A stretch of DNA of 64,000 bases, from NCBI RefSeq assembly GCF_017916275.1, contig NZ_JAFMST010000007.1, forward strand, positions 124,001-188,000, written 5' to 3'. Position numbers and translations under genes: made by a program. This document shows positions 1,583-24,857 of the stretch, piece by piece. Origin of the DNA: Rubellimicrobium arenae. Its GTDB lineage: Bacteria > Pseudomonadota > Alphaproteobacteria > Rhodobacterales > Rhodobacteraceae. Every line of letters starts with the position of its first letter. Within the stretch, counting starts at the first letter, position 1. Under the pieces are notes generated by a model. That model made no database searches and was not told the origin of the DNA. It was given only the letters and a program-made list of their open reading frames with translations.

Positions 1583-2116
1583 GAAAGTTCTTCCCAGGCT
1601 GTCCCGCCCCGGCTGTAGCAAGGCGGTCCCGGTCCGTCACGGCCTTTCGAACGTGGGTTGCCCCGACGAGAGCGCCGAAGGCCCGGAAAGTCCGTTTCCC
1701 GGGCAGAATCGGCCCTCGCCGCCTCCCGGAGCGAGCCTGTCCCAGTCGCGGCCCCGGCGGCCCGCCCCTCCCGCCGGCTGCGCGCCCATGCCGCCGGAAG
1801 AGCCTGCGCCTATTGCGTGGCGGAATCCGAATCACTTGGCCGATAGACCCGAGAACGGTGGCGACTTGCCGGAGTCTGGGGCGTTCGACCGCGTTTCCCA
1901 TACGACATGCCCGAAATAATGTCCGCAATTATGAAACAATACATCCCGTGTCCATGAAATGTAAACGCGCACGCAGGGTAAAGTTAATTGGGCCGCTCGC
2001 TTCCGCCACGGAGCATTGACCGGAGTGGAGGCTGTGTTACGAGAACTTAGGAATTTATTCACCGTGATCTGTCATTGATGTTCGGTGAGTTGGGGCTGCG
2101 CCCAAAGGAGATGAGA
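1583..2116. other. Intergenic region, no gene recognised
   Basis: This stretch separates rfbC (leftward) from the VPLPA-CTERM gene (rightward), so it should hold two divergent promoters. The part from about 1900 to 2070 is clearly richer in A and T than its surroundings, as expected of promoter DNA. I could not assign a -35/-10 pair with confidence. The open frames crossing it are rich in Arg and Pro and resemble nothing. A strong ribosome-binding site, AAAGGAG at 2104-2110, closes the region. Confidence 0.5.
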
Positions 2117-4570: not shown

Positions 4571-4592
4571 CGGGTATCTCCAAGAGAAGGGT

Positions 4593-4618
4593 CCCGGGCC
4601 GGCGGCAACCGGCCCGGG
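4593..4618 (-). other. Strong intercistronic hairpin between binding-protein and ATPase genes
   Basis: A perfect ten-pair G/C stem, CCCGGGCCGG / CCGGCCCGGG, with loop CGGCAA, starts nine bases after the binding-protein stop and ends 22 bases before the ATPase start. No T tract follows on the minus strand. It is more likely a 3'-end stabiliser or partial attenuator than a full terminator. This would let the binding protein be made in excess over the ATPase. Confidence 0.6.
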
Positions 4619-4627
4619 AGGATCGGG

Positions 4628-6076: not shown

Positions 6077-6100
6077 GTTTTTCTCCTCCCTTTGGTTGTC

Positions 6101-7117: not shown

Positions 7118-8004
7118 CACGCGTACCTCCGGGTCAGGCGCTGCGCGAGCGCGAGATAGACCGTGCCGAAGACGATCACGACCACCAGGAAGGTGAAGCT
7201 CAACGCCGAGGTCATGCCGATGTTGAACTTCTTGAACCCCTCGTTGTAGGCGAACAGGGTCAGCGTTTCGGTGGACGTTCCGGGGCCGCCTCCGGTCAGC
7301 ACGAACACGGTGTCGATGACCTTGAAGCCTTCGATCAGGCGGATGAACACAACGGCCACCGACAAGGGCAGGAGCATCGGGAAGGTGATGTCCCAGAAGC
7401 GCCGCCAGACGGGCACGTTGTCCACGCGGGCCGCCTCGAACACCTCGCCCGGCAGGCTTTGCAGTCCGGCCAGCAGGAGGAGCGTGACGAAGGGCGTCCA
7501 CTGCCAGACCTCGACGGTGATGAGCACCGCCATCGCGAGGTTGGGCTCGGTCAGGAAGGGAAGGTTGCCGACCCCCAGCGCGCCCATGAGGTCGTTCACC
7601 GGCCCGAGATAGGGGTGGAACACCATGCGGGCGATCAGGGCCACGCCCACCGGGGCCAGGAACATGGGCAGCAGGAACGTCACCCGGTAGAGCGACGCCC
7701 CCGGCACGTTGTGGTGCAGCGCAAGCGCCAGCGCAAAGCCCAGGATGTATTCGAGCACCACCGACAGGACGGTGATGACGGCCGTGGTCCACATCGATCC
7801 CCAGAACCGCGCCGAGGCCAGGATCTCGGCGTAGTTCTGGACGCCCACGAACCGGGGCGGCATGGGCGGAACGATCCGCATCGTCTGGAAGCTGACCGTC
7901 AGCGCGTAGATGAGCGGAAAGAGCGAGATGAGCAGGACGACCAGGAACGCCGGCCATAGGAAGGCGTGCTTGATCCCGTCGCGGCGCGCGGTTGCCGAAT
8001 TCAT
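7117..8004 (-). CDS. Carbohydrate ABC transporter permease (MalF-like)
   Basis: First inner-membrane permease of the CUT1 importer, 295 residues, normal for the family. Membrane segments start at about 15-35 (FLWPAFLVVLLISLFPLIYA). The EAA loop (EVFEAARVDNVPVWRRFWDITFP) precedes the last two spans. It begins 84 bp downstream of the SDR gene on the same strand, the widest gap in this string, so a separate promoter is possible. No clear promoter was seen. Its stop overlaps the start of permease 2. Confidence 0.94.
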   Translation of the reverse strand: MNSATARRDGIKHAFLWPAFLVVLLISLFPLIYALTVSFQTMRIVPPMPPRFVGVQNYAEILASARFWGSMWTTAVITVLSVVLEYILGFALALALHHNVPGASLYRVTFLLPMFLAPVGVALIARMVFHPYLGPVNDLMGALGVGNLPFLTEPNLAMAVLITVEVWQWTPFVTLLLLAGLQSLPGEVFEAARVDNVPVWRRFWDITFPMLLPLSVAVVFIRLIEGFKVIDTVFVLTGGGPGTSTETLTLFAYNEGFKKFNIGMTSALSFTFLVVVIVFGTVYLALAQRLTRRYA

Positions 8005-8087: not shown

Positions 8088-8855
8088 TCACCAGCAGGTG
8101 TAGCCCCCGTCCGCGAGGACGATGGACCCCGTCATGAGCGAGGCGGCCTCGGAGGCCAGGAACAGGATCACCGCCGCGACCTCGTCGGGCCGCCCCATCC
8201 GGCCCTGGGGCGTGCCGCCGATCCAGTGCCGCATGAGGTCTTCGCGTTCGTAGACGTAGGTGTTCATCGCCGTCTCGATGTAGGTCGGCGCGACCGAGTT
8301 CACCCGCACGCCGCGCGGCGCCCATTCGGCGGCGAGGCTGCGGGTGAGCTGGTGCACGGCGGCCTTGGAGGCGTTGTACTGCGCCTGCTCCTGCGGACGG
8401 TTCACGATGAAGCCCGACATGGAGCCGACGTTGACGATGCTCCCCTGCCCGCGCTCCAGCATCCGCGCCCCGAAGGAGCGGCAGCACCAGAACAGCCCGT
8501 TCAGGTTGATGTCGAGGACGGAAAGCCATTCATCGTCGGACATCCGTTCGGCCGGGATGTTGGACCGGGCGATGCCGGCGTTGTTGACCAGCACGTCCAC
8601 CTCGGGGTGGCGGTCGGCCAGGGCCTGCACCTCGGCCGAGCTGGTCACCTCGAGCCGGTCGGCCACGACGTCATGGCCCTGCGCCCTGAGCGCGGCCGCC
8701 GACTCCTCCGCCGCGGCGGCGTCGCGGTCGGTCAGGATCACGCGGGCGCCGGCCTGCGCCAGCGCCTCGCAGGTGGCAAGGCCGATGCCACGCGCGCCGC
8801 CGGTGACAAGGGCGGTGCGTCCATCCAGGCGGAAGCGGTCGAGATAAGGTGTCAT
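8088..8855 (-). CDS. SDR family oxidoreductase, probable polyol or sugar dehydrogenase
   Basis: NAD(P)-dependent classical short-chain dehydrogenase of 255 residues, the usual length. The cofactor loop TGGARGIG is at 18-25, NNAG at 91-94, and the catalytic triad is Ser147, Tyr160 and Lys164 (YNASK). An Asp after beta-2 (LTDRD) favours NAD over NADP. Its ATG overlaps the stop of the upstream FGGY kinase gene, and it lies between two sugar importers. It therefore probably interconverts a polyol and a ketose for the same pathway. The exact substrate cannot be inferred; sorbitol-, ribitol- and arabinitol-type enzymes all look alike. Confidence 0.9.
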   Translation of the reverse strand: MTPYLDRFRLDGRTALVTGGARGIGLATCEALAQAGARVILTDRDAAAAEESAAALRAQGHDVVADRLEVTSSAEVQALADRHPEVDVLVNNAGIARSNIPAERMSDDEWLSVLDINLNGLFWCCRSFGARMLERGQGSIVNVGSMSGFIVNRPQEQAQYNASKAAVHQLTRSLAAEWAPRGVRVNSVAPTYIETAMNTYVYEREDLMRHWIGGTPQGRMGRPDEVAAVILFLASEAASLMTGSIVLADGGYTCW

Positions 8856-10360
8856 GCGGGGGTTCCAGTCAGGCGATCGAGATCATCATAAAAGGCCTGC
8901 GAATGCAGGTAGAGCCGGTCGAAGACGGGTTGCATCGCGGCATAGCGGTCGGCCCAGGCCGGGTCGGGCGTGACCTCGCGGGTATGCCGCACGGTGCGGG
9001 CGGCGGCCTCCGGCAGGTCGCGCGCCTGCCCCAGCGCGACCGCGCACAAGGCCGCGCAGCCCACGAGGCCGCACTCCGGCTCCTCCGGAATCAGGATCGG
9101 GCGGCCGTAGATGGCGGCCTTGATGCGCAGCCAAAGGTCGGCCCGGGCCCCGCCTCCGCTGGCGATCAGCACCTCCGGACGGGTGCCGGTTGCCTGCTCC
9201 ATGACGCGGAGATGCCGGTTCACGGCAAAGCCCACGCCTTCGAGGACGGCCCGATGCATGTGCGGCAGCCCGTGCCCGGCCGCCAGTCCGAAGAACTGCG
9301 CCCGGCTGTTGCGATGGGCGCCAAGCCTCTCGCCGGCCAGATAGGGCAGGAAGAACAGGGCGTCCGAGCCCACCGGCGCGGCTTCGGCCATGGCAACGAT
9401 CTCGCCGTACCCCAGTTCGTTGCCGTGGAAGGCCCGTCGCGCCCAGCGTGCCGCATCGCCCCCGGACTCGAGGAGCACGAAGGCGCCCCAGTTCCCTTCG
9501 GGCGTGCCGACATTGCTGATCTCGGGGTCGAGGACCGGACGCTCGGCCACCAGGGTCACGATGCACGAGGTTCCCGCCACCTCGGAGGCCATGCCAGGAC
9601 GGCACACCCCCGACCCGAGGAGGGCCACCGGATAGTCCGCCCCGCCCACGAGCACGGGCGTCCCCTGCGCCAAGCCCGTCGCCTCGGCAGCCTCGGCGGT
9701 CACGGTCCCGAGGATCTCGGTCGGGAGGCGGATCGGGGCCAGCTTGCCGCGATCGAGTCCCAGGCGGTCCAGCACCGTCTGCGACCAGTCCCCCGACGCG
9801 GCGTCCATGAGGAACGAGCAGCCCGCGTCGGTCCAGTCCATCGCCCGTTCGCCAGTCAGGCGCAGGTTCACGTAGTCCTTGGGCATCAGGACATGGGTGG
9901 TCCGCGCCCAGGCGTCGGGATCGTGGTCGCGGAGCCACTGGAGCTTGAACGCGGGCCAGGCCGGGGTGGGTGGATTCGCCGTGATCGGCAGCCAGTCCGC
10001 GAGCCGCTCCTCGGCTTCGAAGCGGCGCACGTAATCAAGGGTCCGCTTGTCGTTCCAAAGGGGCACGGCGTCCCGCGCGGGCTGGCCCTCTGCGTCGACC
10101 AGCACCGTCCCGTGCATCTGGCCGCAGGCGGCGACCGCCTGGATGCGCCAGCCTTCGGCGCGCGCGCGCCCGGTCACCTCACGCAGGCTGGCGCAGGCGG
10201 CGGCCCACCAGTCGGCCGGGCGCTGCTCGGACCAGCCGTAGGACGGCACGATCTGGTCGTAGGCCTGCGAGGCGACCGCGAGCACCCGTCCGTCGGCGGT
10301 CATGGCAGCGGCACGGGTGGACCCCGTGCCGATGTCCAGGGCGATCGTGCAGTCCACCAT
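8852..10360 (-). CDS. FGGY-family carbohydrate kinase, xylulokinase-like
   Basis: ATP-dependent kinase of 502 residues that should phosphorylate the imported or oxidised sugar. The N-terminal actin-like fold opens with LDIGTGSTRAAAM, the conserved CGQMHG follows near 79-84, and WND follows in the substrate region. The ATPase domain carries GGADYPVALLGSG and the late GGGARADLWLRI loop. The product resembles XylB in length and layout, but the GGADYP segment differs from the usual GGGDN of xylulokinases, so another ketose or polyol may be used. It shares one base with the permease stop upstream and four with the SDR start downstream. Confidence 0.88.
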   Translation of the reverse strand: MVDCTIALDIGTGSTRAAAMTADGRVLAVASQAYDQIVPSYGWSEQRPADWWAAACASLREVTGRARAEGWRIQAVAACGQMHGTVLVDAEGQPARDAVPLWNDKRTLDYVRRFEAEERLADWLPITANPPTPAWPAFKLQWLRDHDPDAWARTTHVLMPKDYVNLRLTGERAMDWTDAGCSFLMDAASGDWSQTVLDRLGLDRGKLAPIRLPTEILGTVTAEAAEATGLAQGTPVLVGGADYPVALLGSGVCRPGMASEVAGTSCIVTLVAERPVLDPEISNVGTPEGNWGAFVLLESGGDAARWARRAFHGNELGYGEIVAMAEAAPVGSDALFFLPYLAGERLGAHRNSRAQFFGLAAGHGLPHMHRAVLEGVGFAVNRHLRVMEQATGTRPEVLIASGGGARADLWLRIKAAIYGRPILIPEEPECGLVGCAALCAVALGQARDLPEAAARTVRHTREVTPDPAWADRYAAMQPVFDRLYLHSQAFYDDLDRLTGTPA

Positions 10361-11361
10361 CAGCGCCTGCGAAGGATGTGGCTGGCGTGCTGGAGAACGA
10401 CGGCCACCACGATGATGACGCCCAGGTAGACCTGCTGGTGGTAGCCCGGCACGCCGGCGAGGTTCATGATGTTGCCGATGATGCCCAGGATCAGGACGCC
10501 CAGGAAAGTGTTGAGCACGCCGCCGCGGCCGCCCATGAGGCTTGCGCCGCCGATCACGACCGCCGCGATCACGTCAAGCTCGGCCCCGTCGCCGACGCTG
10601 GCCGAGCCCACGCCCGACCGGGAGGTCACGACGATGCCCGCGATGGCCGCCAGGGCGCCCGAGATGACGTAGACCGCCATCACGTACCAGCCGACCGAGA
10701 TGCCGGACAGGCGCACCGCCTCTTCGTTGGAGCCGATCGCCTTTACCAGCCGCCCGAACCGCGAGAAGTTCAGAACGATGAACGCCAGCGCGAAGACGCC
10801 GAACATGAGGAGCGCCGGCGCCGGCACCCCCAGCGGGAAGGCCGTCCCGAAGACCGAGAGCGCGGCCCCGGGCTCGCCCAGCATGATGGGCTGGCCGTTC
10901 GACAGGATCAGGGCCATGCCGCGGGCCGCCGTCATCATGGCCAGCGTGACCACGAAGGCGGGCAGGCGCAGGAAGGCCACGAGGAAGCCCGAGACCGCCC
11001 CGCAGGCCGCCCCGATCCCCACCACCATGAGCAGGGCGACCGGCAACGGGTAGTCCTGCACGAGCACGGCGGTCACCACGGCGCCCAGCGCCGAGATGGA
11101 GCCGACCGACAGGTCGATCCCGCGGGTCAGGATGACATACAGCATCCCCACCGCCATGATGCCGGTCCCGGCATGCTGGCGCAGGATGTTCATGATGTTG
11201 CGCTCGGTCAGGAAGGCGTCCGACTGGAGCGACGCAAGGCCCAGGAGGATCAGGAAGATCGCAAAGGTCCCGAACTGCCGGAACAGCTTTCCGAACTGGA
11301 ACCTGCGGGGCGCGGCCTCCCTGGTGACCGATTGACCGTAACCGGCGGCGTTGTCCGTCAT
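10360..11361 (-). CDS. ABC transporter permease, RbsC/XylH type
   Basis: Inner-membrane permease of a CUT2-type sugar importer, 333 residues. Eight or more hydrophobic segments begin at about 33. Family landmarks are GIDLSVGSI near 85-93, the LPAFVVTLAMM stretch, and AAVVIGGASLMGGRGG, the RbsC loop before the last spans. Its gene lies between the matching dual ATPase upstream (ATGA overlap) and the kinase downstream. One gene serves as homodimeric permease, as in ribose, xylose and autoinducer-2 systems. The substrate is not readable from the sequence. Confidence 0.95.
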   Translation of the reverse strand: MTDNAAGYGQSVTREAAPRRFQFGKLFRQFGTFAIFLILLGLASLQSDAFLTERNIMNILRQHAGTGIMAVGMLYVILTRGIDLSVGSISALGAVVTAVLVQDYPLPVALLMVVGIGAACGAVSGFLVAFLRLPAFVVTLAMMTAARGMALILSNGQPIMLGEPGAALSVFGTAFPLGVPAPALLMFGVFALAFIVLNFSRFGRLVKAIGSNEEAVRLSGISVGWYVMAVYVISGALAAIAGIVVTSRSGVGSASVGDGAELDVIAAVVIGGASLMGGRGGVLNTFLGVLILGIIGNIMNLAGVPGYHQQVYLGVIIVVAVVLQHASHILRRR

Positions 11362-12857
11362 GCGCGTGCCCTTTCCTCGGCTCCGCTCGTCATCGAGAGC
11401 ATGAGCAGGTTCTCCTCGCTGTAGTCCGGCGGCAGGAGCTCACCCCTGAGCCGCCCCTCGCCCATCACCAGCACCCGATCGCAGAGACCGAAGAGCTCGG
11501 CGTGCTCGGAGGATATCACGAGCACCGCCTTTCCTTCGGCCGCCATCCGGTGGATGAGCGAATAGATCTCGGTCTTGGCGCCGACATCGACGCCGCGCGT
11601 CGGCTCGTCAAGGATGACGACGTCGCCGCCCGCATGGAACCACTTGGCCAGCACGACCTTCTGCTGGTTTCCGCCCGAAAGGGACGAGACGGGGTCGCCC
11701 ATGTCGCCCAGCTTGATCCGCAGATCGTCGATCAGGCCACGCACCACGCTCCGTTCCTTGCCGCCCGAGAAGAAGCCCAGGCGCGTGACCGGCCCGGTGT
11801 TGGCCATCGTGGCGTTCTTGCGGATGGCGAGGTCGAGCACCACGCCCTGCCCCTTGCGATCCTCGGGGACCAGGGCGATGCCGTGCCGGACGGCCTGCTT
11901 GGGGGAACGGGGGCGGTAGTTCTCTCCGCGCAGGGTGATCGTGCCGGAGCTGATGGGGTCCGCGCCGAAGATCGCGCGGGCCACCTCGGTCCGCCCCGAC
12001 CCCACGAGCCCGCCCAGCCCGACGACCTCGCCCCGTCGCAACGAGAACGACACGCCCGCCACCCCGTTGGGCAGGGCCAGGTTCTCGACCCGCAGCAGCT
12101 CCTCGCCGACCGTGGTGTGGGGCTTTTCCCCGAAGAGCTGGCTCAGCGGCCGCCCGACCATCATGCGGATGAGCTGGTCCACCGGCACCGCGTCCGGCGT
12201 GACCGTATCGACGTTGCGCCCATCCTTGAGGACCGAGATCCGGTCGGCGATCGCATAGATCTCGTCCAGCCGGTGGGAGATGTAGACGATGCCGACGCCC
12301 TCGCGACGAAGGCCGCGGATGATCTCGAGGAGGCGCTTGGCGTCGCCCATCGACAGCACGGCCGTGGGTTCGTCGAAGACGATGACCCGAGCCCGGCGCG
12401 ACAGGGCCTTGGCGATCTCGACCACCTGCTGGTGGGCGACCGACAGGTCCGACACCGTGGCGCGGGGCGAGATGTCGAAGCCCAGGCGCGCGATCAGCTC
12501 CTTGGCCTGGGTGTTCAGCCTGCCCCAGCCGATGCGGGCGGGCAGCTCGCCCAGGAAGATGTTCTCGGCCACGGACAGGTCCGGGGCCAGCGCCATCTCC
12601 TGGTGGATGATGCTGATGCCGCGGCGGATCGCGTCCGTCGGCCCGGTGAGGCGCACGGCTTCGCCGCCGACCTCCACGCTGCCGGCATCGGGCCGCAGCT
12701 CGCCCCCCATCACACGCATCAGCGTGGACTTGCCGGCGCCATTCTCGCCGACCATGGCGTGCACCTCGCCCGGCCGCACGTCGAAGCTGACGCCGGACAG
12801 GGCGTGGATGCCCGCAAAGGACTTGTCGATGCCGCGCAGGGCGACCAGGGGGGTCAT
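11358..12857 (-). CDS. Sugar ABC transporter ATP-binding protein, tandem domain (RbsA type)
   Basis: ATPase of the CUT2 importer, 499 residues, with two fused ABC domains. Domain 1 has Walker A GENGAGKST at 38-46 and VIVFDEPTAVLS as Walker B. Domain 2 has the degenerate P-loop GLVGSGRTE, usual for RbsA, then LSGGNQQKV and VVILDEPTRGVD. The ATG at 12857 was chosen because GGAGGAG lies about five bases upstream; a longer in-frame start at 12908 would include unrelated sequence. A hairpin lies between it and the upstream binding-protein gene. Confidence 0.95.
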   Translation of the reverse strand: MTPLVALRGIDKSFAGIHALSGVSFDVRPGEVHAMVGENGAGKSTLMRVMGGELRPDAGSVEVGGEAVRLTGPTDAIRRGISIIHQEMALAPDLSVAENIFLGELPARIGWGRLNTQAKELIARLGFDISPRATVSDLSVAHQQVVEIAKALSRRARVIVFDEPTAVLSMGDAKRLLEIIRGLRREGVGIVYISHRLDEIYAIADRISVLKDGRNVDTVTPDAVPVDQLIRMMVGRPLSQLFGEKPHTTVGEELLRVENLALPNGVAGVSFSLRRGEVVGLGGLVGSGRTEVARAIFGADPISSGTITLRGENYRPRSPKQAVRHGIALVPEDRKGQGVVLDLAIRKNATMANTGPVTRLGFFSGGKERSVVRGLIDDLRIKLGDMGDPVSSLSGGNQQKVVLAKWFHAGGDVVILDEPTRGVDVGAKTEIYSLIHRMAAEGKAVLVISSEHAELFGLCDRVLVMGEGRLRGELLPPDYSEENLLMLSMTSGAEERARA

Positions 12858-12888
12858 CGGCGCTCCTCCATCCGACGCAGGAAAGGAC

Positions 12889-12917
12889 GGCCGCCCGGCA
12901 GGAGACACCGGACGGCC
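12889..12917 (-). other. Intercistronic hairpin after the RbsB-like gene
   Basis: GGCCGCCCGG / CCGGACGGCC forms a ten-pair stem with one mismatch around a nine-base loop. It sits directly beyond the binding-protein stop and before the RbsA-type gene. The 11-mer GGACGGCCGCC also occurs as a direct repeat here. As with the hairpin at 4593, no T run follows, so stabilisation of the upstream message is the likelier role. Confidence 0.5.
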
Positions 12918-12928
12918 GCCATGTTGGA

Positions 12929-13894
12929 TCAGAACAGCGAGTTCGGGTCCATGTAGTCGGCGACGTTCTCCTGGGTGATCACCGCCGGATCCGTGTAGAT
13001 CAGCTTGGGCGTGTCTTCCGGCAGTTCGCCGTTCAGCGCCTGCAGGCCGATCTCGACCGCGCGGCGGGCGATCTCGTTGGGGTTGTTGAGGCCGGTCGCG
13101 CCGTACTCGCCCTTCTGGATCAGGTCGTAGGCTTCCTTCTGGCCGTCGGCGGCGGCCACGAGGGTCACCTCGCCCAGGCGGCCGGCGGCTTCCAGCGCCT
13201 GACGGGCGCCCAGCACCATGGAGTCGTTCTCGCCCAGCACGACGTTGATGTCGGGATGCGCGGTGAGAAGGTCTTCCATCGCGGTCAGGCCGCCTTCGGT
13301 CGACCAGTTGCCCCAGCCCTGGCCCAGCACCGTCACTTCGGCATGGCCCTGGTTGGTCAGCATCGCATCCATCAGACCGGTCAGGACGCCCAGGCGGCGC
13401 TCACGCCCGACGAGGTTCCCCTGCGACCCGGAGATGAGCGCGATGCGCGCCGGCTCGCCGTTCAGCTGCTTGGCCAGCCATTCGCCCACGAGCTGCCCGT
13501 TGGCGCTGTTCGACGACTGGATCTGGGTGATGAAGTTCGCCGAAGGATCGAGCGTGGAGTCGATCGCGACGACATGCACGCCGGCAGCCGAGGCGGCGTT
13601 CACGGCGGGGATGAGGCCTTGCGCGTCGCGGGGGTTCACGATCAGCACGTTGATGCCCGAGGCGACCATGTCCTCGATGTCGGCGATCTGCTTGACCATG
13701 TCGTTCTGGCCGTCGGCCGAGCGGACCTGGCAGCCAGCCGCCTCGGCGGTGGCGCGGGCGGTCGCTTCCTGGGCGGCGAAGTAGGGTGCGCCGAGCGTGT
13801 ACATCGAGATGCCAAGCACGCAGTCCTGAGCGTGGGCAGCCGTGCCCGCCATGAGCGCCGCAGCCGCGACGCCCGCAAGTGTCTTCATCGACAT
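12929..13894 (-). CDS. Sugar ABC transporter substrate-binding protein, RbsB-like
   Basis: Periplasmic binding protein of the CUT2 importer, 321 residues, usual for family 4 (ribose/galactose type). A signal peptide ending AHAQ covers about 1-22. The two-lobe fold is marked by VLGISMYTLGAPYFAAQ at the first strand, VNPRDAQGLIPAV, and LGENDSMVLGARQAL before the hinge. The start ATG at 13892-13894 has GGAGG five bases upstream; a second ATG six bases on is less well spaced. It is the first gene of the leftward string and faces the cupin operon across a 219-bp divergent promoter region. Confidence 0.94.
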   Translation of the reverse strand: MSMKTLAGVAAAALMAGTAAHAQDCVLGISMYTLGAPYFAAQEATARATAEAAGCQVRSADGQNDMVKQIADIEDMVASGINVLIVNPRDAQGLIPAVNAASAAGVHVVAIDSTLDPSANFITQIQSSNSANGQLVGEWLAKQLNGEPARIALISGSQGNLVGRERRLGVLTGLMDAMLTNQGHAEVTVLGQGWGNWSTEGGLTAMEDLLTAHPDINVVLGENDSMVLGARQALEAAGRLGEVTLVAAADGQKEAYDLIQKGEYGATGLNNPNEIARRAVEIGLQALNGELPEDTPKLIYTDPAVITQENVADYMDPNSLF

Positions 13895-14113
13895 GTCATC
13901 CTCCACTGTAGTTCTTCGCCCCCTCCCGGGCGACGGCCGGCACGTCACCGGTAGCAACATGGAGCGTAGTTACAGGAATTTTTCTCGTCAACTCTGTTTA
14001 ACGCCCATCCTGCTCGCATTTAGGTCATTCGGGATTGCCAGACGGGTCCGCCTGCGGTTAATCCTGAATCAAGATGTAGCAACGCTACCAAATTTGGCGA
14101 TGGAGGAGATCAC
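13895..14113. promoter_or_regulatory. Divergent promoter region with palindromic candidate operators
   Basis: This region drives the leftward importer/kinase string and the rightward cupin operon. It contains GTAGCAACGCTAC at 14076-14088, a palindrome with a three-base centre. Overlapping its end is a perfect ten-base palindrome, CCAAATTTGG, at 14088-14097. The octamer GTAGCAAC recurs at 13951-13958, followed by GTAGTTAC at 13966-13973. Repeated half-sites around two divergent starts suit control by the RpiR-family regulator encoded at the end of the rightward operon. That link is inferred only from position. Confidence 0.5.
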
Positions 14114-14740
14114 GTGACCCTACAGGAACCCCGCCTCTGCCAGGTATCGGTCGAGACCGGCCTGCTGGGCAACGCGGACGGCCACTACCAGAAGCGTTTC
14201 ACCGACCTCGCCGGGCTTTACGCCGATGCGGCTGCCTTCGACCGCCTGCTCGCGCAGCGCGGCAATGAGGTCGCCTACGAGGTGACCTCGTTCACGCCCG
14301 GCCAGAAGGTGAGCGACCTCATCGTCGGCGTCACCCGGATGGAGCCGGGCAAGGTCGGCGAGGAGTATTTCCTCACGCGCGGACACATCCACGCGCGCGG
14401 CGACCGGCCCGAGGTCTACTACGGCCAGGCCGGCCACGGCCTGATGCAGATGGAAAGCCCCGACGGCGAGGTGCGGATCGTCGAGGTCGGCCCCCAGAGC
14501 ATCTGCTATGTTCCCCCCTTCTGGATTCATCGCAGCATCAACGTCGGCTCGACCGATCTCGTCATGATGTTCACCTACCCGGCCGATTCGGGCCAGGACT
14601 ACGGGATCATCGAACGGTCGGGCGGCATGCGCGTCCGGATCGTGGACGATGGGCGCGGCGGCTGGCGCCAGGTGGAGAATCCCGACTGGCGCCCCCGGTC
14701 CCGCGAGGAGGTCCAGGGCATTCTGGACGCCGCGGCATGA
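14114..14740 (+). CDS. Cupin-type phosphoglucose isomerase family protein
   Basis: Resembles the metal-dependent glucose-6-phosphate isomerase of archaeal type (PgiA, PF06560), a small cupin unrelated to ordinary bacterial Pgi. The product has 208 residues. The cupin metal motif reads TRGHIHA and continues to PEVYYGQAGHGLMQM, providing His, His and Glu ligands. A later His lies in PPFWIHRSINVG. The start is a GTG at 14114 with GGAGGAG five bases upstream. In this setting it probably isomerises a phosphorylated aldose produced by the neighbouring kinase, not glucose-6-phosphate for glycolysis. Its stop overlaps the next start. Confidence 0.85.
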   Translation: MTLQEPRLCQVSVETGLLGNADGHYQKRFTDLAGLYADAAAFDRLLAQRGNEVAYEVTSFTPGQKVSDLIVGVTRMEPGKVGEEYFLTRGHIHARGDRPEVYYGQAGHGLMQMESPDGEVRIVEVGPQSICYVPPFWIHRSINVGSTDLVMMFTYPADSGQDYGIIERSGGMRVRIVDDGRGGWRQVENPDWRPRSREEVQGILDAAA

Positions 14741-15717
14741 GCGGGCCCGCCACGACCGCCGAGCCCTCGGCCCGGGTCTATGCCCCGTGCGAACGGCCCA
14801 CGCTGCACTTCATCGGCGTGACGACGACCAAGAGCAGCATCATGAAGGTATTTCCCGCCTGGGCCCGCCACCTGGGACTGGGGGATGCGGCGATCCGGGG
14901 CATCGATTTCGCCCCCCACTCCGACCCCGCTGCCTACCGCGAGGCGGTGGCCTTCATCCGGGACGACCCCAACTCCATGGGGGCCCTCGTCACGACGCAC
15001 AAGATCGACCTGTTCCACGCCGCGCGGGACATGTTCGACGAGGTGGACCACTTCGCCGCCCTGATGGGCGAAACCTCCTGCATCTCCAAGCGGGACGGGA
15101 GGCTCGTGTGCCATGCGAAGGACCCGATCAGCTCGGGCCTTTCGATCGATGGCTTCCTGGCGCCCGATCATTTCGCGCGCACGGGCGGGCAGGTCGTGTC
15201 GATGGGGGCCGGCGGCTCCACCATCGCGCTGACCTGGCACCTGATGCAGGCGCGCCAGGACCGTCCGTCGCGCATCGTGGTGACCAACCGGTCCCAGCCG
15301 CGCCTGGACGAGATCCGCCACGTCCACCAGCAGATCGGCAGCGACATTCCCGTGGACTACGTTCTCGCCCCCGAGCCTTCGGCCAACGACCGGGTGCTCG
15401 ACGGGCTCCCGCCGGGATCGCTGGTCATCAACGCGACCGGCCTGGGCAAGGATGCGCCCGGATCGCCCCTGACCGACGCCGCCCGCTTTCCGGAGAACGG
15501 CGTGGCCTGGGACCTCAACTACCGCGGCGACCTGATCTTCCTCGACCAGGCCCGCGCGCAGGCGGCCGAACGGCGGCTGCAGGTGGAGGACGGCTGGACC
15601 TACTTCATCCACGGCTGGACGCAGGTCATCGCCGAGGTCTTCGGCATCACCATCGACACCGGCGCCGACAACATCGCCGAGCTGACCCGCATCGCCAACG
15701 CGGCGGCAAAGGGCTGA
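14737..15717 (+). CDS. Shikimate dehydrogenase (AroE)-like oxidoreductase of unknown substrate
   Basis: NAD(P)-dependent enzyme with the AroE two-domain layout, 326 residues against about 270-290 for biosynthetic AroE. The N-terminal substrate domain has VTTHK at 85-89, keeping the catalytic Lys but lacking the usual N and P of NVTxPxK. The Ser-x-Ser substrate motif is replaced by TTTKSS near 30-34. An Asp near 129 (AKDP) may match the catalytic Asp. The cofactor domain has GAGGST at 157-162 and TNRSQ. Its place inside a sugar operon, with ATGA coupling to the cupin gene, argues against a role in aromatic biosynthesis. A cyclic polyol or sugar-acid substrate is an inference. Confidence 0.8.
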   Translation: MSGPATTAEPSARVYAPCERPTLHFIGVTTTKSSIMKVFPAWARHLGLGDAAIRGIDFAPHSDPAAYREAVAFIRDDPNSMGALVTTHKIDLFHAARDMFDEVDHFAALMGETSCISKRDGRLVCHAKDPISSGLSIDGFLAPDHFARTGGQVVSMGAGGSTIALTWHLMQARQDRPSRIVVTNRSQPRLDEIRHVHQQIGSDIPVDYVLAPEPSANDRVLDGLPPGSLVINATGLGKDAPGSPLTDAARFPENGVAWDLNYRGDLIFLDQARAQAAERRLQVEDGWTYFIHGWTQVIAEVFGITIDTGADNIAELTRIANAAAKG

Positions 15718-15721
15718 TGGG

Positions 15722-16660
15722 ATGGAGCGCATCCTTGTCACGCCCCGGTCCCTGACCTCGGCCCCTCCCCCGGCCCTGGACCGGCTGACGGAGGCGGGCT
15801 TCGAGCTGGTGTTCTCCACGCCCGGAGCCACCCCGTCCGAGGCCGAGCTGCTCCGGCTCGTGCCGGGCTGCGTGGGCTGGCTCGCCGGAGTGGAGCCGGT
15901 GAGCGAGGCCGTCGTCGCGGCCGCCGACCGCCTGCGCATCATCAGCCGCAACGGCACCGGGGCCGACAACCTCCCGCTCGCGGCGCTGTCGGCGCGCGGC
16001 ATCCAGGTCGCCCGCGCGATGGGCGCCAATGCGACCGGCGTGGCCGAACTGGCGCTGGGCCTGATGCTGGCCGCCTGCCGGCACATTCCCCAGACCACCG
16101 CCGGGGTTCAGGTCGGCGGCTGGCCCCGGCTCAAGGGCCGGGAGATCGAGGGCTCGACCGTGGGCATCGTCGGCATGGGCGCGATCGGCCGCCGCGTGGC
16201 CCGCGTCCTCGAGGCGCTGGGGGCGCGGATCGTGGCGCACGACCCGTTCCGCCCCGATCCGGGGGGCATCCGGCTGGACTACGTCAGCCTCGACGAACTG
16301 CTGGAACGGTCGGGGATCGTGACGCTCCATTGCCCTCCGCCCGAGGATGGCCGCCCCCTTCTCGGGCATGGGCAGCTCGGCCGGCTGCCCAAGGGCGCGA
16401 TCCTGGTGAATACGGCGCGGGCGAACCTCGTGGACCCGGCGGCCGTGCTCGCCGCGCTCGATGAGGGGCGGATCGAAACCTACGCGACCGACGTTTTCGC
16501 GGTGGAGCCCCCGACCGGCGATCCGCTGGCCGGGCATCCCCGCGTGCTCGGGACCAGCCATGTCGGGGCCCTGACCGACGGCAGCGTCGCCCGTGCCACC
16601 GAAGCGGCCATCGACAACCTCCTCGTGGCGCTCAGGACCTCGGCCGATGCGGCTCTCTGA
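15722..16660 (+). CDS. D-2-hydroxyacid dehydrogenase family protein (SerA-like)
   Basis: NAD-dependent dehydrogenase of 312 residues, typical of short members without an ACT domain. The cofactor loop GMGAIG is at 151-156 with Asp174 (AHDPF) after beta-2. The catalytic residues are Arg233 (NTARANLVD), Glu262 (AVEPP) and His280 (TSHVG). It lies four bases after the AroE-like gene and overlaps the next gene by 14 bp. Here it is likely to act on a 2-keto or 2-hydroxy acid formed from the imported sugar, not on 3-phosphoglycerate. The exact acid is unknown. Confidence 0.9.
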   Translation: MERILVTPRSLTSAPPPALDRLTEAGFELVFSTPGATPSEAELLRLVPGCVGWLAGVEPVSEAVVAAADRLRIISRNGTGADNLPLAALSARGIQVARAMGANATGVAELALGLMLAACRHIPQTTAGVQVGGWPRLKGREIEGSTVGIVGMGAIGRRVARVLEALGARIVAHDPFRPDPGGIRLDYVSLDELLERSGIVTLHCPPPEDGRPLLGHGQLGRLPKGAILVNTARANLVDPAAVLAALDEGRIETYATDVFAVEPPTGDPLAGHPRVLGTSHVGALTDGSVARATEAAIDNLLVALRTSADAAL

Positions 16661-17495
16661 GCGATCCTTGTTCGGCCCGCTGGCCGATCTCCTCGCCCGG
16701 CCGCCGGGCGAAGCCTTGGGGATCGTGTGGCTCGGGCAGGCCGGGTTCGTCGTGGACGGGGCGGGCCTGCGGGTGGTGATCGACCCCTACCTGTCCGACA
16801 GCCTGGAGGAGAAGTACCGCGGCTCGGCCCTGGACCACCGCCGCCAGATGCCGGCGCCCGTCGCGCCGGACGGCATCCGGCACGTGACCGCCGTGCTGTC
16901 GACCCACGCGCATGGCGACCACATGGACCCCGGGACGCTGCCCGGCCTCCTGGCCGCGAACCCTGGCGCGGTGCTCGTCGCGCCGGCCCACTCGACCGCA
17001 CAGGCGCTCGAACGCGGCGGGATCGGCCCGGACCGGCTGCGCCCCATCGACGCCGGACAGACCCTGACGCTCGGTCCCGGACTTGAGGTGACGGCAACCC
17101 GCGCCGCCCACGAGAGCCTGGAAACCGATGCCGAGGGCCGGCACCGCTGGCTGGGCTTTGCCCTGCGGCTGGCCGGGGCGACCGTCTTCCATTCGGGGGA
17201 CACGATCCCCTTCGAAGGGCAGGTCGAGGAGGTCCGCGCGCTACGCCCGGACGTGATGCTCCTGCCCGTGAACGGGCGCGGCAAGGGCGTGCCCGGCAAC
17301 ATGACGCCCGACGAGGCGGCCAGCCTCGCCCGCGGCGCAGGCGCGGGGGCGGCGATCCTCCACCACTTCGGCCTGTTCGCCTTCAACACGGTCCCCCGGC
17401 CGGAGCTCGACGTCGTCGTGGCGCGCGTTCGGGACATCCCCCTTGCGCCCGCCCGGCCCGATGTCATCTACCGGCTCGAACCGGAGGCGACATGA
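16647..17495 (+). CDS. Metallo-beta-lactamase-fold hydrolase, UlaG-like
   Basis: Predicted cytosolic metal-dependent hydrolase of 282 residues. The metal motif HAHGDH is at 87-92 (THAHGDHMDP). Further ligands are likely in HSGDT and in LHHFGLFAFNT near the C-terminus. The early WLGQAGF and IDPYLS segments match UlaG (L-ascorbate-6-phosphate lactonase) and related YtnP-like lactonases. In a sugar operon, lactone opening is the natural reading, but many homologues are uncharacterised. The ATG at 16647 begins inside the preceding gene (14-bp overlap). An upstream frame to 16593 only re-reads that gene. Confidence 0.83.
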   Translation: MRLSERSLFGPLADLLARPPGEALGIVWLGQAGFVVDGAGLRVVIDPYLSDSLEEKYRGSALDHRRQMPAPVAPDGIRHVTAVLSTHAHGDHMDPGTLPGLLAANPGAVLVAPAHSTAQALERGGIGPDRLRPIDAGQTLTLGPGLEVTATRAAHESLETDAEGRHRWLGFALRLAGATVFHSGDTIPFEGQVEEVRALRPDVMLLPVNGRGKGVPGNMTPDEAASLARGAGAGAAILHHFGLFAFNTVPRPELDVVVARVRDIPLAPARPDVIYRLEPEAT

Positions 17496-18379
17496 CCGTC
17501 AACGAAAGCAGCGACCTTGCCGGAGCGCGAAACGTCCTGGAGGTGATCCGCACCGTCCTGGGCGACCTGCGGAAATCCGACCGGCGCGTGGCCGAGGCAG
17601 TCATGGCCGACCCCCAGCGCATCCTGGGGGCGACCGTGGCCGAAACCGCCGAGCTGGCGGGCGTGAGCCAGCCGACGGTGATCCGGTTCTGCACGGCCAT
17701 CGGCTGCGACGGCTTCCAGGACTTCAAGATCCGCCTGGCGCAGAGCCTGGCGCTTGGCACCTCTGCCTCCCATTCGGCCATCGCCGAAGAGGATTCGCCC
17801 GACGAGGTCGCGAGGAAGATCTTCGACTACACCATGACCTCGCTCGACTGGTCGCGGCACCGGCTCGACATGACGCAGATGAACGCCGCCGTGGACCTCA
17901 TCCTCGAGGCCGACCACATCGAGTTCTTCGGCTTCGGCGCCTCGGCGATCGTGGCCCAGGACCTCCAGCAGAAGTTCCCCCTGTTCGGGATCCCCTGCAA
18001 TGCGACCATGGACAGCCACCAGCAACTCATGGCGGCCTCCATGATGCGGCCGGGGGCGGTGGCGGTCGCGATCTCGAACACCGGGGGAACCCGCAGCATC
18101 ATCGAGCTGGCCCGCCTCGCGCGCGAGCAGGGGGCCAAGGTCATCGCCATGACGGGGTCGATGGACTCCGCGCTGATCAACTACGCCGACGTGGTGATCA
18201 ACATCGAGACGCTGGACAACACCGACGTCTTCACGCCCACCACGAGCCGCATCGCGGCCCTGGTGACGGCGGACATCCTGTCCACCCTCGTGGCGCGCCG
18301 CCTGGGCAAGGCGCACAACCAGCGGCTGGTGCGGATGAAGCGCTTCCTCAGCCAGATGCGCCGGAACGAGACGTTCTGA
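17492..18379 (+). CDS. MurR/RpiR family transcriptional regulator
   Basis: Sugar-phosphate-responsive DNA-binding regulator, 295 residues. An N-terminal helix-turn-helix domain spans about 14-90 (ETAELAGVSQPTVIRFC is the recognition region). A SIS domain from about 130 to 275 holds ISNTGGTRSIIE, the phosphosugar-binding loop. It overlaps the upstream hydrolase gene (ATGA) and closes the rightward operon, so it is probably autoregulated and acts at the divergent region near 14 kb. Its last 32 bp overlap the 3' end of the HAD phosphatase gene on the other strand. Confidence 0.94.
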   Translation: MTVNESSDLAGARNVLEVIRTVLGDLRKSDRRVAEAVMADPQRILGATVAETAELAGVSQPTVIRFCTAIGCDGFQDFKIRLAQSLALGTSASHSAIAEEDSPDEVARKIFDYTMTSLDWSRHRLDMTQMNAAVDLILEADHIEFFGFGASAIVAQDLQQKFPLFGIPCNATMDSHQQLMAASMMRPGAVAVAISNTGGTRSIIELARLAREQGAKVIAMTGSMDSALINYADVVINIETLDNTDVFTPTTSRIAALVTADILSTLVARRLGKAHNQRLVRMKRFLSQMRRNETF

Positions 18380-19022
18380 GCGCGGCCACGCGGCCCGGCA
18401 GGTCGGCCATGCGGGCGACGATCTCCAGGGCGCCCGCTTCCAGCAACCGCTCCCCGTGATCGGGATAGCTGTGCCGCCCGCCGGTGAAGCCGATCACCCG
18501 CATCCCGGCCGCCAGCGCCGCCGTGATGCCCGCCACGCTGTCCTCGATGATGAGGCAGTCGCGGGGCTCGGCCCCGGACCGGGCGGCGGCGAACAGGAAC
18601 ACGTCCGGCGCCGGCTTGCCGCGCGCCACCTGGCTCGCCGAATAGACATGCGGGTCGAAGACATGGAGGAGCCCGCAGCGCTCGAGCGAGCGCCGGAGCT
18701 TGGGCAGCGCCGAGGAGGACGCGACCGCGAGGGGCGGATCGATGCGCCCAAGCGCCTCGGCCACGCCCTCGACGGCCTGCAACTCCGTCTCGATCGCCCG
18801 GAGGAGGCGGGCCTCCGCCTCCTCGATGAGGCCCTCGGGCCAGGGCGCGCCACGCTCGGCCTCGATGCCGGCCCAGATCTCCCGCTTGGGCCGGCCGATC
18901 CAGGCGCGGATCAGGTCCTGCGCCGTGATCGGGTGGCCCGCGCCGGTCATGAGCTCGGCATCGATGGCGTTGGACAGGATCTCGCTGTCCACCAGCACGC
19001 CGTCGCAATCGAAGATGATCAT
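18348..19022 (-). CDS. HAD family phosphatase (beta-phosphoglucomutase-like)
   Basis: Haloacid-dehalogenase-type hydrolase of 224 residues. Motif I is IIFDCDGVLVDSE with the nucleophile Asp5 and acid/base Asp7. Motif II is the Ser in ASSSALPK, the conserved Lys lies in RGKPAPDVF, and IIEDSVAGI supplies the acidic motif. The fold and cap resemble YcjU/GPH-type sugar-phosphate phosphatases. The ATG at 19020-19022 overlaps the stop of the aldehyde dehydrogenase gene. It is the last gene of the leftward SorC operon and may remove dead-end sugar phosphates. The substrate is not determined. Confidence 0.9.
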   Translation of the reverse strand: MIIFDCDGVLVDSEILSNAIDAELMTGAGHPITAQDLIRAWIGRPKREIWAGIEAERGAPWPEGLIEEAEARLLRAIETELQAVEGVAEALGRIDPPLAVASSSALPKLRRSLERCGLLHVFDPHVYSASQVARGKPAPDVFLFAAARSGAEPRDCLIIEDSVAGITAALAAGMRVIGFTGGRHSYPDHGERLLEAGALEIVARMADLPGRVAALRTSRSGASG

Positions 19023-21364
19023 TCGCCGTAGGGCACCCAGATGTTCTTGACCTGGGTCGCGCGGTGGAGGAACTCCCTGCCCTGCCCCGCGGGCCCGAAC
19101 CAGTCGCGCGCCGCGCCATCCTCGGTCCAGGTCTGCTTGAGGTTCCCGGCCGAGGCCGCCTCGACCATCTTCGCGCCCGCTGCCGTGCCGAAGTACCACA
19201 TCGCGGCCACGTCGTCGTGGTCGGCCAGCGTCCTGGCCAGCGCGTCCCGCTCCCCGGTGACGATGTTGATCACGCCGCCGGGCAGGTCCGAGGTGTCGAG
19301 GACCTGATACAGGTCCGTCGCCGCCAGCGGATGCGCCTGCGACGGGATCGCGACCACCGAGTTGCCCATGGCGATGGCGGGCAGCACAAGGCTCACGAAG
19401 CCCAGGAGGGGCTGCGTCGCCGGACAGGCGATGCCGATCACCCCGAGGGGCTCGGGCACGGCGAGCGTGACGTGCTCGGTCTTGGTTTGGTGGACCGCCC
19501 CGTCGAACTTGTCGGCCTGGGCCGCGTACCAGAAGCAGCGACGGATCGCGGCGTCCACCTCGGCCTTGGCCGCCGGCCGGGCGATCCCGAAGGAGGCGAG
19601 CCGTCCCTCGAACTCGACCGCGCGAGCCGACAGGTTCTCGGCCAGGTAATAGAGCACCTGGGCGCGGTTGTGCCCGGTGGTCTTGCCCCAGCCCGCAACC
19701 TTGTGCGCGGCCTCGACGGCGTTGCGGATGTCCTTGCGGTTGCCCAGCCCGGCCAGGCCGCCCGGCACGGCGAAGACATAGCCGGAATCCGGCCGCGCCT
19801 GCTTGCCGCCGACATAAAGCTTGGCCGTCCGGTCGATGCCCGGCCCCGCCGATGCGAGACCCGGCGTGGCGACCGGAGCGTCGGGCTCGGCCTCGGGCCG
19901 GGACGCGGCGGGGCGCGGATGCGCCAGATAGGCCGTCATGCCCTCGCGCCCGCCTTCGCGGCCGTAGCCGCTCTCACGGTAGCCGCCGAAGCCTGCGCCC
20001 GCGTCGAAGATGTTGGTCGAATTGATCCACACGACCCCGGCCTTCACCTTGGCGGCGACGTCGAGGCACAGGTTCACGTTCTCGGACCAGATGGAGGCCG
20101 CGAGCCCGTAGCGCGTGGCGTTGGCCAGGGCGACGGCGTCCTCGGGGGTGCGGAACGTGGTGATCGTGGCGACCGGCCCGAAGATCTCCTCGGTCGCCAG
20201 CGTCGAGGCCGGCTCCACGTCGGCCGCGATGGTCGGCGGGAAGAAGCAGCCTTCCGGCGCCTCGCCCTGCGTCAGGGTCGCCCCCTCGGCCTGCCCCTTG
20301 GCGACCAGCGCCCGGATGCGTTCGAGCTGCACGGGGTGCACGATGGCCCCCATGTCGGTGTTCTTGTCGAGCGGATCGCCCACCCGCAGCGTCCGCATCC
20401 GGGCGGCCAGCTTCTTCTCGAAGCGGGGCGCGACGGCCTCGGCCACGAGGATGCGGGCCCCGGCGCAGCAGACCTGGCCCTGGTTGAACCAGATCGCGTC
20501 CACCACGCCCTCGACGGCGGCATCGAGGTCCGCGTCCGCGAAGACGACGAAGGGCGACTTGCCCCCCAGCTCCAGCGTCAGCGGCTTGCCCGTCCCGGCG
20601 GTCTGGCGGCGGATGATCCGGCCCACCTCGGTCGATCCGGTGAAGGCGATCTTGTCAATCCCTTCGGCGGCGACCAGGGCCGCGCCGGTGGCTCCGTCGC
20701 CGGTCACGATGTTCAGCACGCCCTCGGGCAGCCCGCATTCGGCGGCGATCTGCGCAAAGGCCAGCGCGGTCAGCGGCGTGTATTCGGCCGGCTTGAGCAC
20801 CACCGTGTTCCCGGCGGCCAGCGCGGGCGCCACCTTCCAGGCCAGCATCAGGAGCGGGAAGTTCCAGGGGATGATCTGGCCGCAGACCCCGTGCGGGCGG
20901 GCGCCCGGGAACTCGCTGTCGAGGATCTCGGCCCATCCGGCATGGTGGTAGAAGTGCCGGGCGACCAGCGGCACGTCGATGTCGCGGCTTTCCCGGATCG
21001 GCTTGCCGTTGTCGATGGTCTCCAGCACCGCAAGGAAGCGGGCGTGCTGCTGGACATGGCGGGCCAGCGCGTAAAGGTGCCGCGCGCGCTCATGGCCGGA
21101 CAGCGCCGCCCAGCCGGGCTGGGCCTTGCGCGCCGCCGCGACGGCAGCGGCCACATCCTCGGGCGTCCCCTGCGACACGCGGGCGATCGCCTCGCCCGTG
21201 GCCGGGTTCTGCACCTCGAAGGTCTCGCCGGGCGTGGTGAAGGCGCCGCCGATGAAATGGCCGAAGCCGCCGGGGAACTGCCCGAGCCAGTCGGTCACGA
21301 TCCGCGCGTCCTCGGGCGCGGGGCCGTAGTCCATGGAAGCCAGGATGTTGGAAACGGTGGTCAT
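19019..21364 (-). CDS. Tandem-domain aldehyde dehydrogenase (ALDH16-like)
   Basis: NAD(P)-dependent aldehyde oxidation by a 781-residue protein, about 300 residues longer than an ordinary ALDH. Domain 1 (about 35-480) is complete: PWNF with Asn168, GSTEVG at 243-248, Glu265 in LELGGKS, and catalytic Cys299 in GQVCC. From about 510 a second, shortened ALDH-like region begins (LYVGGKQARPDSGYVF). It keeps PLGVIGIACPATQPLL and GGVINIVTG but shows no catalytic Cys motif. This layout is that of the ALDH16 family, whose C-terminal domain is non-catalytic. It lies next to deoC, so the substrate is probably the aldehyde released by the aldolase. Confidence 0.93.
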   Translation of the reverse strand: MTTVSNILASMDYGPAPEDARIVTDWLGQFPGGFGHFIGGAFTTPGETFEVQNPATGEAIARVSQGTPEDVAAAVAAARKAQPGWAALSGHERARHLYALARHVQQHARFLAVLETIDNGKPIRESRDIDVPLVARHFYHHAGWAEILDSEFPGARPHGVCGQIIPWNFPLLMLAWKVAPALAAGNTVVLKPAEYTPLTALAFAQIAAECGLPEGVLNIVTGDGATGAALVAAEGIDKIAFTGSTEVGRIIRRQTAGTGKPLTLELGGKSPFVVFADADLDAAVEGVVDAIWFNQGQVCCAGARILVAEAVAPRFEKKLAARMRTLRVGDPLDKNTDMGAIVHPVQLERIRALVAKGQAEGATLTQGEAPEGCFFPPTIAADVEPASTLATEEIFGPVATITTFRTPEDAVALANATRYGLAASIWSENVNLCLDVAAKVKAGVVWINSTNIFDAGAGFGGYRESGYGREGGREGMTAYLAHPRPAASRPEAEPDAPVATPGLASAGPGIDRTAKLYVGGKQARPDSGYVFAVPGGLAGLGNRKDIRNAVEAAHKVAGWGKTTGHNRAQVLYYLAENLSARAVEFEGRLASFGIARPAAKAEVDAAIRRCFWYAAQADKFDGAVHQTKTEHVTLAVPEPLGVIGIACPATQPLLGFVSLVLPAIAMGNSVVAIPSQAHPLAATDLYQVLDTSDLPGGVINIVTGERDALARTLADHDDVAAMWYFGTAAGAKMVEAASAGNLKQTWTEDGAARDWFGPAGQGREFLHRATQVKNIWVPYGE

Positions 21365-21376
21365 GGGTCAGGTCCC

Positions 21377-24853: not shown

Positions 24854-24857
24854 GGCC

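Follow-up and report, generated by a model that had tools for sequence, protein, structure and literature searches.

In the Entner-Doudoroff pathway (Zwf, Pgl, Edd, Eda, HexR) a hexose-6-phosphate is oxidized to a lactone, the lactone is opened and a 2-keto acid is cut by Eda. A similar course is proposed here for a carbohydrate gene cluster of Rubellimicrobium arenae, at positions 8088-18379 of a 64,000-nucleotide stretch of contig NZ_JAFMST010000007.1 (“the window” hereafter means this whole stretch), and its regulator, like HexR, would be of the type that responds to 2-keto-3-deoxy-6-phosphogluconate (KDPG). The cluster differs from the classical set in that an AroE-like dehydrogenase would stand in for Zwf, a metallo-beta-lactamase-fold hydrolase (MBL) for Pgl and a SerA-like 2-hydroxyacid dehydrogenase (HADH) for the dehydratase, and in that it brings its own kinase, cupin isomerase and importer. 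Our best reading is an Entner-Doudoroff-like route that would run free of a dehydratase, with three of its steps carried out by proteins of other folds. The D-altritol and galactitol pathways of Agrobacterium tumefaciens C58, reportedly described by Wichelecki in 2015, also represent polyol catabolism with an alditol dehydrogenase. A literature search, with subscription papers mostly outside its reach, returned no named pathway and no description of this gene set, in agreement with an earlier annotation made from the letters alone (the sequence-only reading), which knew of no described pathway joining these families; the families are known, and their combination is apparently undescribed.

The source genome (4.55 Mb, 39 contigs) has Rubellimicrobium roseum and R. 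mesophilum as nearest named relatives (88% identity of the AroE-like protein, among the best 80 of 247 relatives). Open reading frame (ORF) and family searches found the genes at the positions given by the sequence-only reading: on the minus strand a short-chain dehydrogenase/reductase (SDR), an FGGY kinase and the permease, ATPase and solute-binding protein (SBP) of a CUT2 importer, and on the plus strand a cupin-type phosphoglucose isomerase (GPI), the AroE-like dehydrogenase, HADH, MBL and an RpiR-family regulator. The enzyme and transport genes number nine besides rpiR, not eight as first counted. With the starts chosen, the claimed overlaps of 1-14 bp hold at six of the eight junctions (4, 1 and 4 bp on one side, 4, 14 and 4 bp on the other), and the remaining two are gaps of 20 bp (ATPase/SBP) and 4 bp (AroE-like/HADH). 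The 219-bp divergent promoter region also stands, given an SBP start at 13894.

The distribution of the genes was followed in loci that a search with the AroE-like protein had drawn from named genome records (best 80 of 247 relatives), of which 73 were countable, the other seven being left out for flanks that were too short; a gene was scored as present on a blastp match above identity thresholds anywhere in the locus, with simple ORF calls. The GPI cupin was found in 72 of the 73 loci, the FGGY kinase in 69, RpiR and MBL in 68 each, HADH in 63 (64 with L072, added from tblastn), the CUT2 permease and ATPase in 52 each and the CUT2 SBP in 50. Of other oxidoreductases, any SDR of the seeds used was present in 54 loci, a GldA-like dehydrogenase in 47, a galactitol-1-phosphate 5-dehydrogenase-like enzyme in 11 and one kind of aldo-keto reductase gene in six. 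A core of six genes was kept in 55 of the 73 loci, and similar gene orders were seen in annotated plasmid records. Because the whole set named by the sequence-only reading is kept in 42 of the 73 loci, the cluster is real and conserved and not a product of chance, and the co-occurrence check which that reading had proposed was passed. The cluster occurs in soil, plant and marine bacteria of the Rhizobiales, Rhodobacterales, Acetobacteraceae and Paraburkholderia, in which it would constitute a so far unassigned catabolic route. The AroE-like gene is patchy: it was found in six genomes of a 61-member sample of relatives, six of 198 in the family and eight of 289 in the class (with three weak matches), each count including the source genome, and in two of 399 genomes in the order of a Paraburkholderia (Burkholderiales), one of them the scan centre. 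Such a spread looks like that of an accessory pathway.

The layout might also represent two unrelated operons that share a promoter, namely a polyol operon (CUT2 importer, SDR and a kinase leading to xylulose-5-phosphate) beside a separate oxidoreductase operon. SDR, FGGY and CUT2 genes are generally known as a common polyol layout, and transporter type does vary (CUT2 in 50 and CUT1 in 11 of the 73 loci), but the FGGY kinase is present in 69 loci whichever transporter accompanies it, the kinase gene of the Sinorhizobium meliloti locus (L088) forms one run of same-strand genes with those for GPI and the AroE-like enzyme, and the shared gap holds two operators of one motif. We consider such a pair of operons very improbable; a plain xylulose operon alone was rejected on the locus co-occurrence counts. 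In PLSDB, strain Ak57 is the only S. meliloti record found to carry the AroE-like gene, and literature matches to SMb20857/pgiA2 were set aside on that ground.

We infer every reaction of the proposed route, together with reaction order, cofactor and substrate, from the observed gene content, conservation, catalytic residues, operator and residue changes in the regulator. A linear polyol or ketose would enter via the CUT2 importer, all expected parts of which are present: a permease (10360-11361, minus strand; Pfam BPD_transp_2), a double ATPase (11358-12908, minus strand, start possibly 12857; Pfam ABC_tran in two stretches, NCBIfam AraG below cut-off) and an SBP (12929-13894, minus strand, longest ORF to 13960; Pfam Peripla_BP_4). 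The SDR oxidoreductase (8088-8855, minus strand; Pfam adh_short_C2) would convert polyol to ketose, and the xylulokinase-like FGGY kinase (8852-10360, minus strand; Pfam FGGY_N/FGGY_C) ketose to ketose-6-phosphate, which would also act as inducer through an RccR-like repressor. The GPI cupin (14114-14740, plus strand; PF06560, 203.7 bits, cut-off 20.7) would then yield aldose-6-phosphate; the AroE-like enzyme (14737-15717, plus strand; sub-threshold TIGR00507), with NADP, would oxidize the ring form at C1, giving a lactone; MBL (16647-17495, plus strand, longest ORF from 16593; Pfam Lactamase_B_2) would open the lactone to aldonate-6-phosphate; HADH (15722-16660, plus strand; Pfam 2-Hacid_dh_C) would oxidize the aldonate at C2, which yields a 2-keto acid; and an aldolase of the KDPG type, encoded elsewhere in this genome, would cleave the 2-keto acid to a C3 acid and glyceraldehyde-3-phosphate. 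We put this order of steps forward tentatively, at somewhat less than an even chance.

The import, phosphorylation, isomerization, oxidation and lactone opening proposed by the sequence-only reading fit the families and their intact residues. Its endpoint, a hydroxyacid, is probably not the last product: with a KDPG-type aldolase gene present in most related clusters, the route is likely to continue through a 2-keto acid to C-C cleavage. As to its proposed substrates (sugar, cyclitol or sugar acid), a linear polyol or ketose appears more likely than a cyclitol or sugar acid because the core contains a ketose-type kinase of the FGGY family and an isomerase that interconverts aldoses and ketoses. 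The best PDB match of this kinase is a xylulose kinase, and its score against TIGR01312 is 335.1 bits, under the cut-off of 380.25.

Residues were counted over all assigned proteins above thresholds, with the window included where the gene is present. The cupin metal ligands H91, H93 and E100 are kept in 83 of 83 proteins and H139 in 81 of 83; the MBL metal site (HxHxDH, H173, D203, H257 and H258) is kept in 81 of 81, and R233, E262 and H280 of HADH in 75 of 75. In the window proteins all catalytic residues checked are intact. MBL resembles UlaG, the L-ascorbate-6-phosphate lactonase, in metallo-beta-lactamase fold, metal ligands and proposed phospho-lactone substrate, but differs in its score against the UlaG profile NF008688 (22.8 bits, cut-off 306), on which a UlaG-type ascorbate pathway was rejected.

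The AroE-like protein belongs to no Pfam family at E 0.001 and scores 35.8 bits against TIGR00507, far under the cut-off of 200.2, while a true AroE (229 bits) is encoded on another contig of the same genome, and on this ground a role for the AroE-like gene in shikimate biosynthesis was rejected. It shares with shikimate dehydrogenase and 5-ketofructose reductase the fold and the catalytic Lys/Asp pair: K89 and D129, equivalent to the catalytic Lys65 and Asp102 of Escherichia coli AroE, are kept in 88 of 88 proteins. On the other hand, it differs from shikimate dehydrogenase at the positions of the shikimate ligands Ser16, Asn86 and Gln244, which are replaced by I35, S114 and G293, with Ser14 kept as S33, and by extra invariant Lys and Arg residues (K128, K238 and R263, unchanged in 88 of 88), a hint at a possible phosphate-binding site. 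The NADP motif retains its two Arg residues, R185 and R189, consistent with NADP as putative cofactor. In the fold search with the structural model (predicted local distance difference test 90.3) the best match was 2hk9 and the third was 5-ketofructose reductase 7cok, an enzyme that acts on a sugar. Records of relatives annotate the gene as shikimate dehydrogenase; under the present assignment the proteins now so labeled would make up a new family of dehydrogenases with the AroE fold.

Most of the fold matches listed for this protein are shikimate or quinate dehydrogenases, which act on ring hydroxyls, and this speaks for a different scheme in which the AroE-like enzyme would oxidize a hydroxyl on the ring of a cyclitol or an anhydro-sugar, the cupin would shift the carbonyl around that ring, MBL would open the ring and the kinase would act on the linear product. 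Many rings are opened by MBL-fold hydrolases, and an inositol-monophosphatase-family gene is present in a distant variant of the cluster (L092). However, the core kinase is an FGGY kinase with a xylulose kinase as best PDB match, the metal ligands known from phosphoglucose isomerase are present in the cupin and the regulator has contacts like those for linear KDPG (PMC10810197), all of which speak against a ring substrate and make this scheme quite unlikely.

A KDPG-type aldolase (Eda) gene is present in 53 of the 73 loci, mapped between GPI and AroE-like save in two distant loci (L092 and L093), and in the source genome eda lies beside edd on another contig. The closest PDB entries are the Pseudomonas and E. 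coli KDPG aldolases (best 1mxs, E 1.5e-43) and the site residues E/R/T/P/K/F are unchanged in 61 of 61 Eda proteins that are 40% or more identical to the seed; Eda is accordingly classed here, on these residues, as a canonical KDPG aldolase with an intact, pyruvate-forming active site. To form pyruvate, an aldolase of this kind requires a 2-keto-3-deoxy acid, which the classical pathway makes by means of a dehydratase. Edd/IlvD dehydratase seeds from the source genome, picked by mutual similarity, matched one of 87 loci (L081), this being the only dehydratase family searched. Outside that search set, a Marinovum plasmid carries an IlvD/EDD-family gene in a neighboring TRAP operon.

As no dehydratase was found, yet the aldolase has an intact KDPG-aldolase site, a substrate that lacks the 3-hydroxyl is favored: HADH would yield a 2-keto-3-deoxy acid only from a sugar already without that hydroxyl. 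In particular, 3-deoxyfructose-6-phosphate would be turned into KDPG itself, and then pyruvate. We propose 3-deoxyfructose or a 3-deoxyhexitol, which would account for most of the observations, as a possible substrate, with a probability clearly below even. The more specific proposal is that of a dedicated route for 3-deoxyhexitols and 3-deoxyfructose, both reduced forms of 3-deoxyglucosone. Here a 3-deoxyketose-6-phosphate would reach KDPG through isomerization, oxidation at C1 by a new sugar-phosphate dehydrogenase of AroE fold, opening of the lactone and oxidation at C2, with no dehydratase, and the repressor would be a relative of RccR whose specificity has shifted from KDPG to the analogue with an alcohol at C1. 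This proposal is possible but rather doubtful. In animals, 3-deoxyfructose arises from the Maillard product 3-deoxyglucosone through aldo-keto reductases, according to the accessible part of PMC8227408. If the 3-deoxy reading is true, the cluster would show how bacteria reuse sugars that come from glycation, and its regulator would be a clear example of a changed ligand preference among RccR/HexR proteins.

RccR of Pseudomonas binds a 15-bp site, TGTAGT-N3-ACTACA, from which it is released by KDPG (available part of PMC5489143), and the motif of the cluster matches that site. A 15-bp palindrome TGTARY-N3-RYTACA (outer bases free) was found in 63 of 77 divergent regions, the window included, compared with a chance mean of 0.14 per 77 regions (100 shuffles), and 25 of the 77 hold two sites. 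A motif scan of the 64-kb window gave two matches at one mismatch or fewer, both in the divergent gap, with 0.04 expected: operator 1, TGTAGCAACGCTACC, a predicted site upstream of GPI (14075-14089, plus strand), and operator 2, TGGAGCGTAGTTACA, with one mismatch, upstream of SBP (13960-13974, plus strand). The inner 13 bases of operator 1 (GTAGYNNNRCTAC) have one exact match in the source genome, in the divergent gap of the cluster, whereas a reversed control pattern of the operator core gave 105 matches on each strand.

The regulator itself (17492-18379, plus strand) is closest in the PDB to 8k3b (199 bits), and its score against NCBIfam HexR is 263.3 bits, under the cut-off of 296. The 8k3b entry is the RccR/KDPG complex, with nine KDPG contacts; among them H148, R152 and K270 bind the C1-carboxylate, and the R152A protein does not bind KDPG (as stated in the available part of PMC10810197). 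Seven of these nine contacts are kept or changed from Ser to Thr in the window protein (S139, S183, H164, K270 and R277 kept, Thr at S185 and S188), so that the full RccR contact set is absent, and those that remain correspond to phosphate, C2-carbonyl and C5-hydroxyl contacts as described there. By contrast, all 78 module regulators have Gln at the position of H148, and at that of R152 there is Leu in 76 of them and Met in the other two. Thus the likeness to RccR covers the RpiR/SIS architecture, the 15-bp site and the phosphate and C2/C5 contacts (PMC5489143 and PMC10810197, available parts), and the difference lies in H148 to Gln and R152 to Leu and in a core operator that occurs once in the source genome, at the cluster's own divergent gap. 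On the motif and the contacts, regulator and operator are assigned to the RccR/HexR (KDPG-sensing) kind. Because H148 and R152 are replaced in all 78 regulators, we suggest an effector of KDPG-like shape without the carboxylate, i.e., a (3-deoxy)ketose-6-phosphate; this is a lead and not proof, since K270 stays. The distant L092 regulator, outside the 78, has Leu, Arg and Ser at the positions of H148, R152 and K270. E. coli YebK (HexR, a sensor of KDPG) keeps the Arg and Lys equivalent to R152 and K270.

The closest solved structure to the CUT2 SBP is PDB 4ry9 (55% identity, Foldseek E 1.8e-33). Its ligand, which we take to be D-talitol, is one of the points in favor of the main rival to a 3-deoxy substrate, in which the same chain would serve an ordinary rare hexitol or ketohexose (D-altritol/D-talitol, D-psicose or D-tagatose) with its 3-hydroxyl kept, the Eda-like enzyme giving hydroxypyruvate and glyceraldehyde-3-phosphate, or another aldolase acting. 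Such a substrate also suits the polyol-type SDRs, the galactitol-1-phosphate 5-dehydrogenase-like enzyme of 11 loci and a regulator pocket that would accept any ketose-6-phosphate. However, the Eda site is that of a pyruvate-forming aldolase, none of the six annotated plasmid loci has a gene labeled for hydroxypyruvate or glycerate, and epimerization to fructose-6-phosphate would be simpler, which leaves a special route hard to explain; a rare hexitol or ketohexose is judged unlikely. On the side of a 3-deoxy substrate, D-altritol (the same compound as D-talitol) and D-mannitol differ at C3 only (available part of PMC12193009), so a 3-deoxymannitol site might accept talitol. The scan of Burkholderiales (two of 399 genomes), aimed at the Verminephrobacter relative of 4ry9, did not place the 4ry9 gene in such a cluster.

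Several observations weigh against the proposed chain, its substrate or its effector: i) the reactions of the cluster enzymes are read from family and residues; ii) the AroE-like proteins are close relatives (A1, 66-89% identical, effective number of sequences 1.7), which makes their invariance weak evidence; iii) HADH has no match in nine of the 73 loci and MBL none in five (L016, L020, L029, L040 and L067), and L016, L020 and L067, which are without both, fit a seven-step route poorly unless housekeeping enzymes assist; iv) no Eda copy is found in the window's cluster or in 20 of the 73 loci; v) the dehydratase search covered the IlvD/EDD family, by sequence; vi) 14 of the 77 divergent regions have no operator match; vii) the K270 carboxylate contact is kept in 78 of 78 regulators, which leaves room for a carboxylate effector; viii) in YebK, Asn and Val stand at the positions of H148 and H164, which are thus not strict; ix) the literature search found no report of bacterial growth on 3-deoxyfructose; and x) D-talitol is a presumed ligand of 4ry9.

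The loci without HADH were compared for a substitute. A GlcD-like FAD oxidase (PF01565+PF02913), of a family that oxidizes 2-hydroxyacids, is present in four of the nine HADH-less loci and in four of the 64 with HADH (Fisher p 0.006, with loci that are not independent); the copy in L089 scores 240.5 bits against the glcD model (cut-off 567.9). This swap backs the C2 oxidation step with moderate support only, because three of the four linked genes are from Paraburkholderia and homologues also occur elsewhere in all six HADH-less-cluster genomes searched, both of which count against it. HADH homologues in the HADH-less-cluster genomes were too numerous to inform, and four of ten proteins from ORFs beside some of these clusters had no Pfam match, probably as wrong-strand ORFs.

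The smallest modules (L016, L020 and L067) hold FGGY, GPI and AroE-like as their only module enzymes, plus RpiR, with CUT2 in L016 and L020 and no HADH, MBL or Eda in any of the three. The L020 record is titled Mycobacterium sp. KBS0706, a name that looks wrong; its module order is as in Inquilinus limosus L016, at similar identity. A distant version, with a different (GlpK-like) kinase and two sugar phosphate isomerase/epimerase genes, lies on Shinella (L092, 11842-18472) and Ensifer (L093) plasmids, with identities to the window of 57-58% for AroE-like, 52% for HADH and 35-37% for GPI.

A CUT1 importer (3509-8004) starts 83 bp past the SDR gene on the same strand, and the limits 8088-18379 set by the sequence-only reading look too narrow; this second importer probably belongs to the same system and would be another entry for the polyol or ketose. 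It consists, all on the minus strand, of a MalK-like ATPase (3509-4570; Pfam ABC_tran, OB_MalK and TOBE_2), an SBP (4628-6076; SBP_bac_1), permease 2 (6101-7126, start approximate; BPD_transp_1) and permease 1 (7117-8004; BPD_transp_1). Their orthologues are 70-89% identical in 11 loci, 75-94% in 11 of 80, 74-87% in 10 and 75-91% in 11, respectively, all 80 loci having been picked by the AroE-like gene. A PDB search with the CUT1 binding protein gave weak sugar-binding matches only. A CUT1 set of the window kind is present in 11 of the 73 loci, including L082, which also has CUT2; by the seeds used, 13 loci have neither kind, and the window has both.

On the other flank, an operon on the minus strand (18348-25877) encodes a HAD phosphatase, a two-domain ALDH, DeoC, a SorC-type regulator, a second FGGY kinase and a Zn-dehydrogenase. 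All six genes are kept in L008, L011 and L019 and some in L017 and L039, and the operon, possibly an allied pathway, adds a further hint of deoxy-sugar chemistry. This DeoC scores above the deoxyribose-phosphate aldolase cut-off, and in the S. meliloti locus L088 deoC lies within the module itself. Adjoining this second operon is a GAF/PAS histidine kinase of the HWE family (26177-28165). At the far left of the window (123-1621, minus strand), a nucleotidyl transferase and a dTDP-4-dehydrorhamnose 3,5-epimerase form a dTDP-rhamnose-type set unrelated to the cluster.

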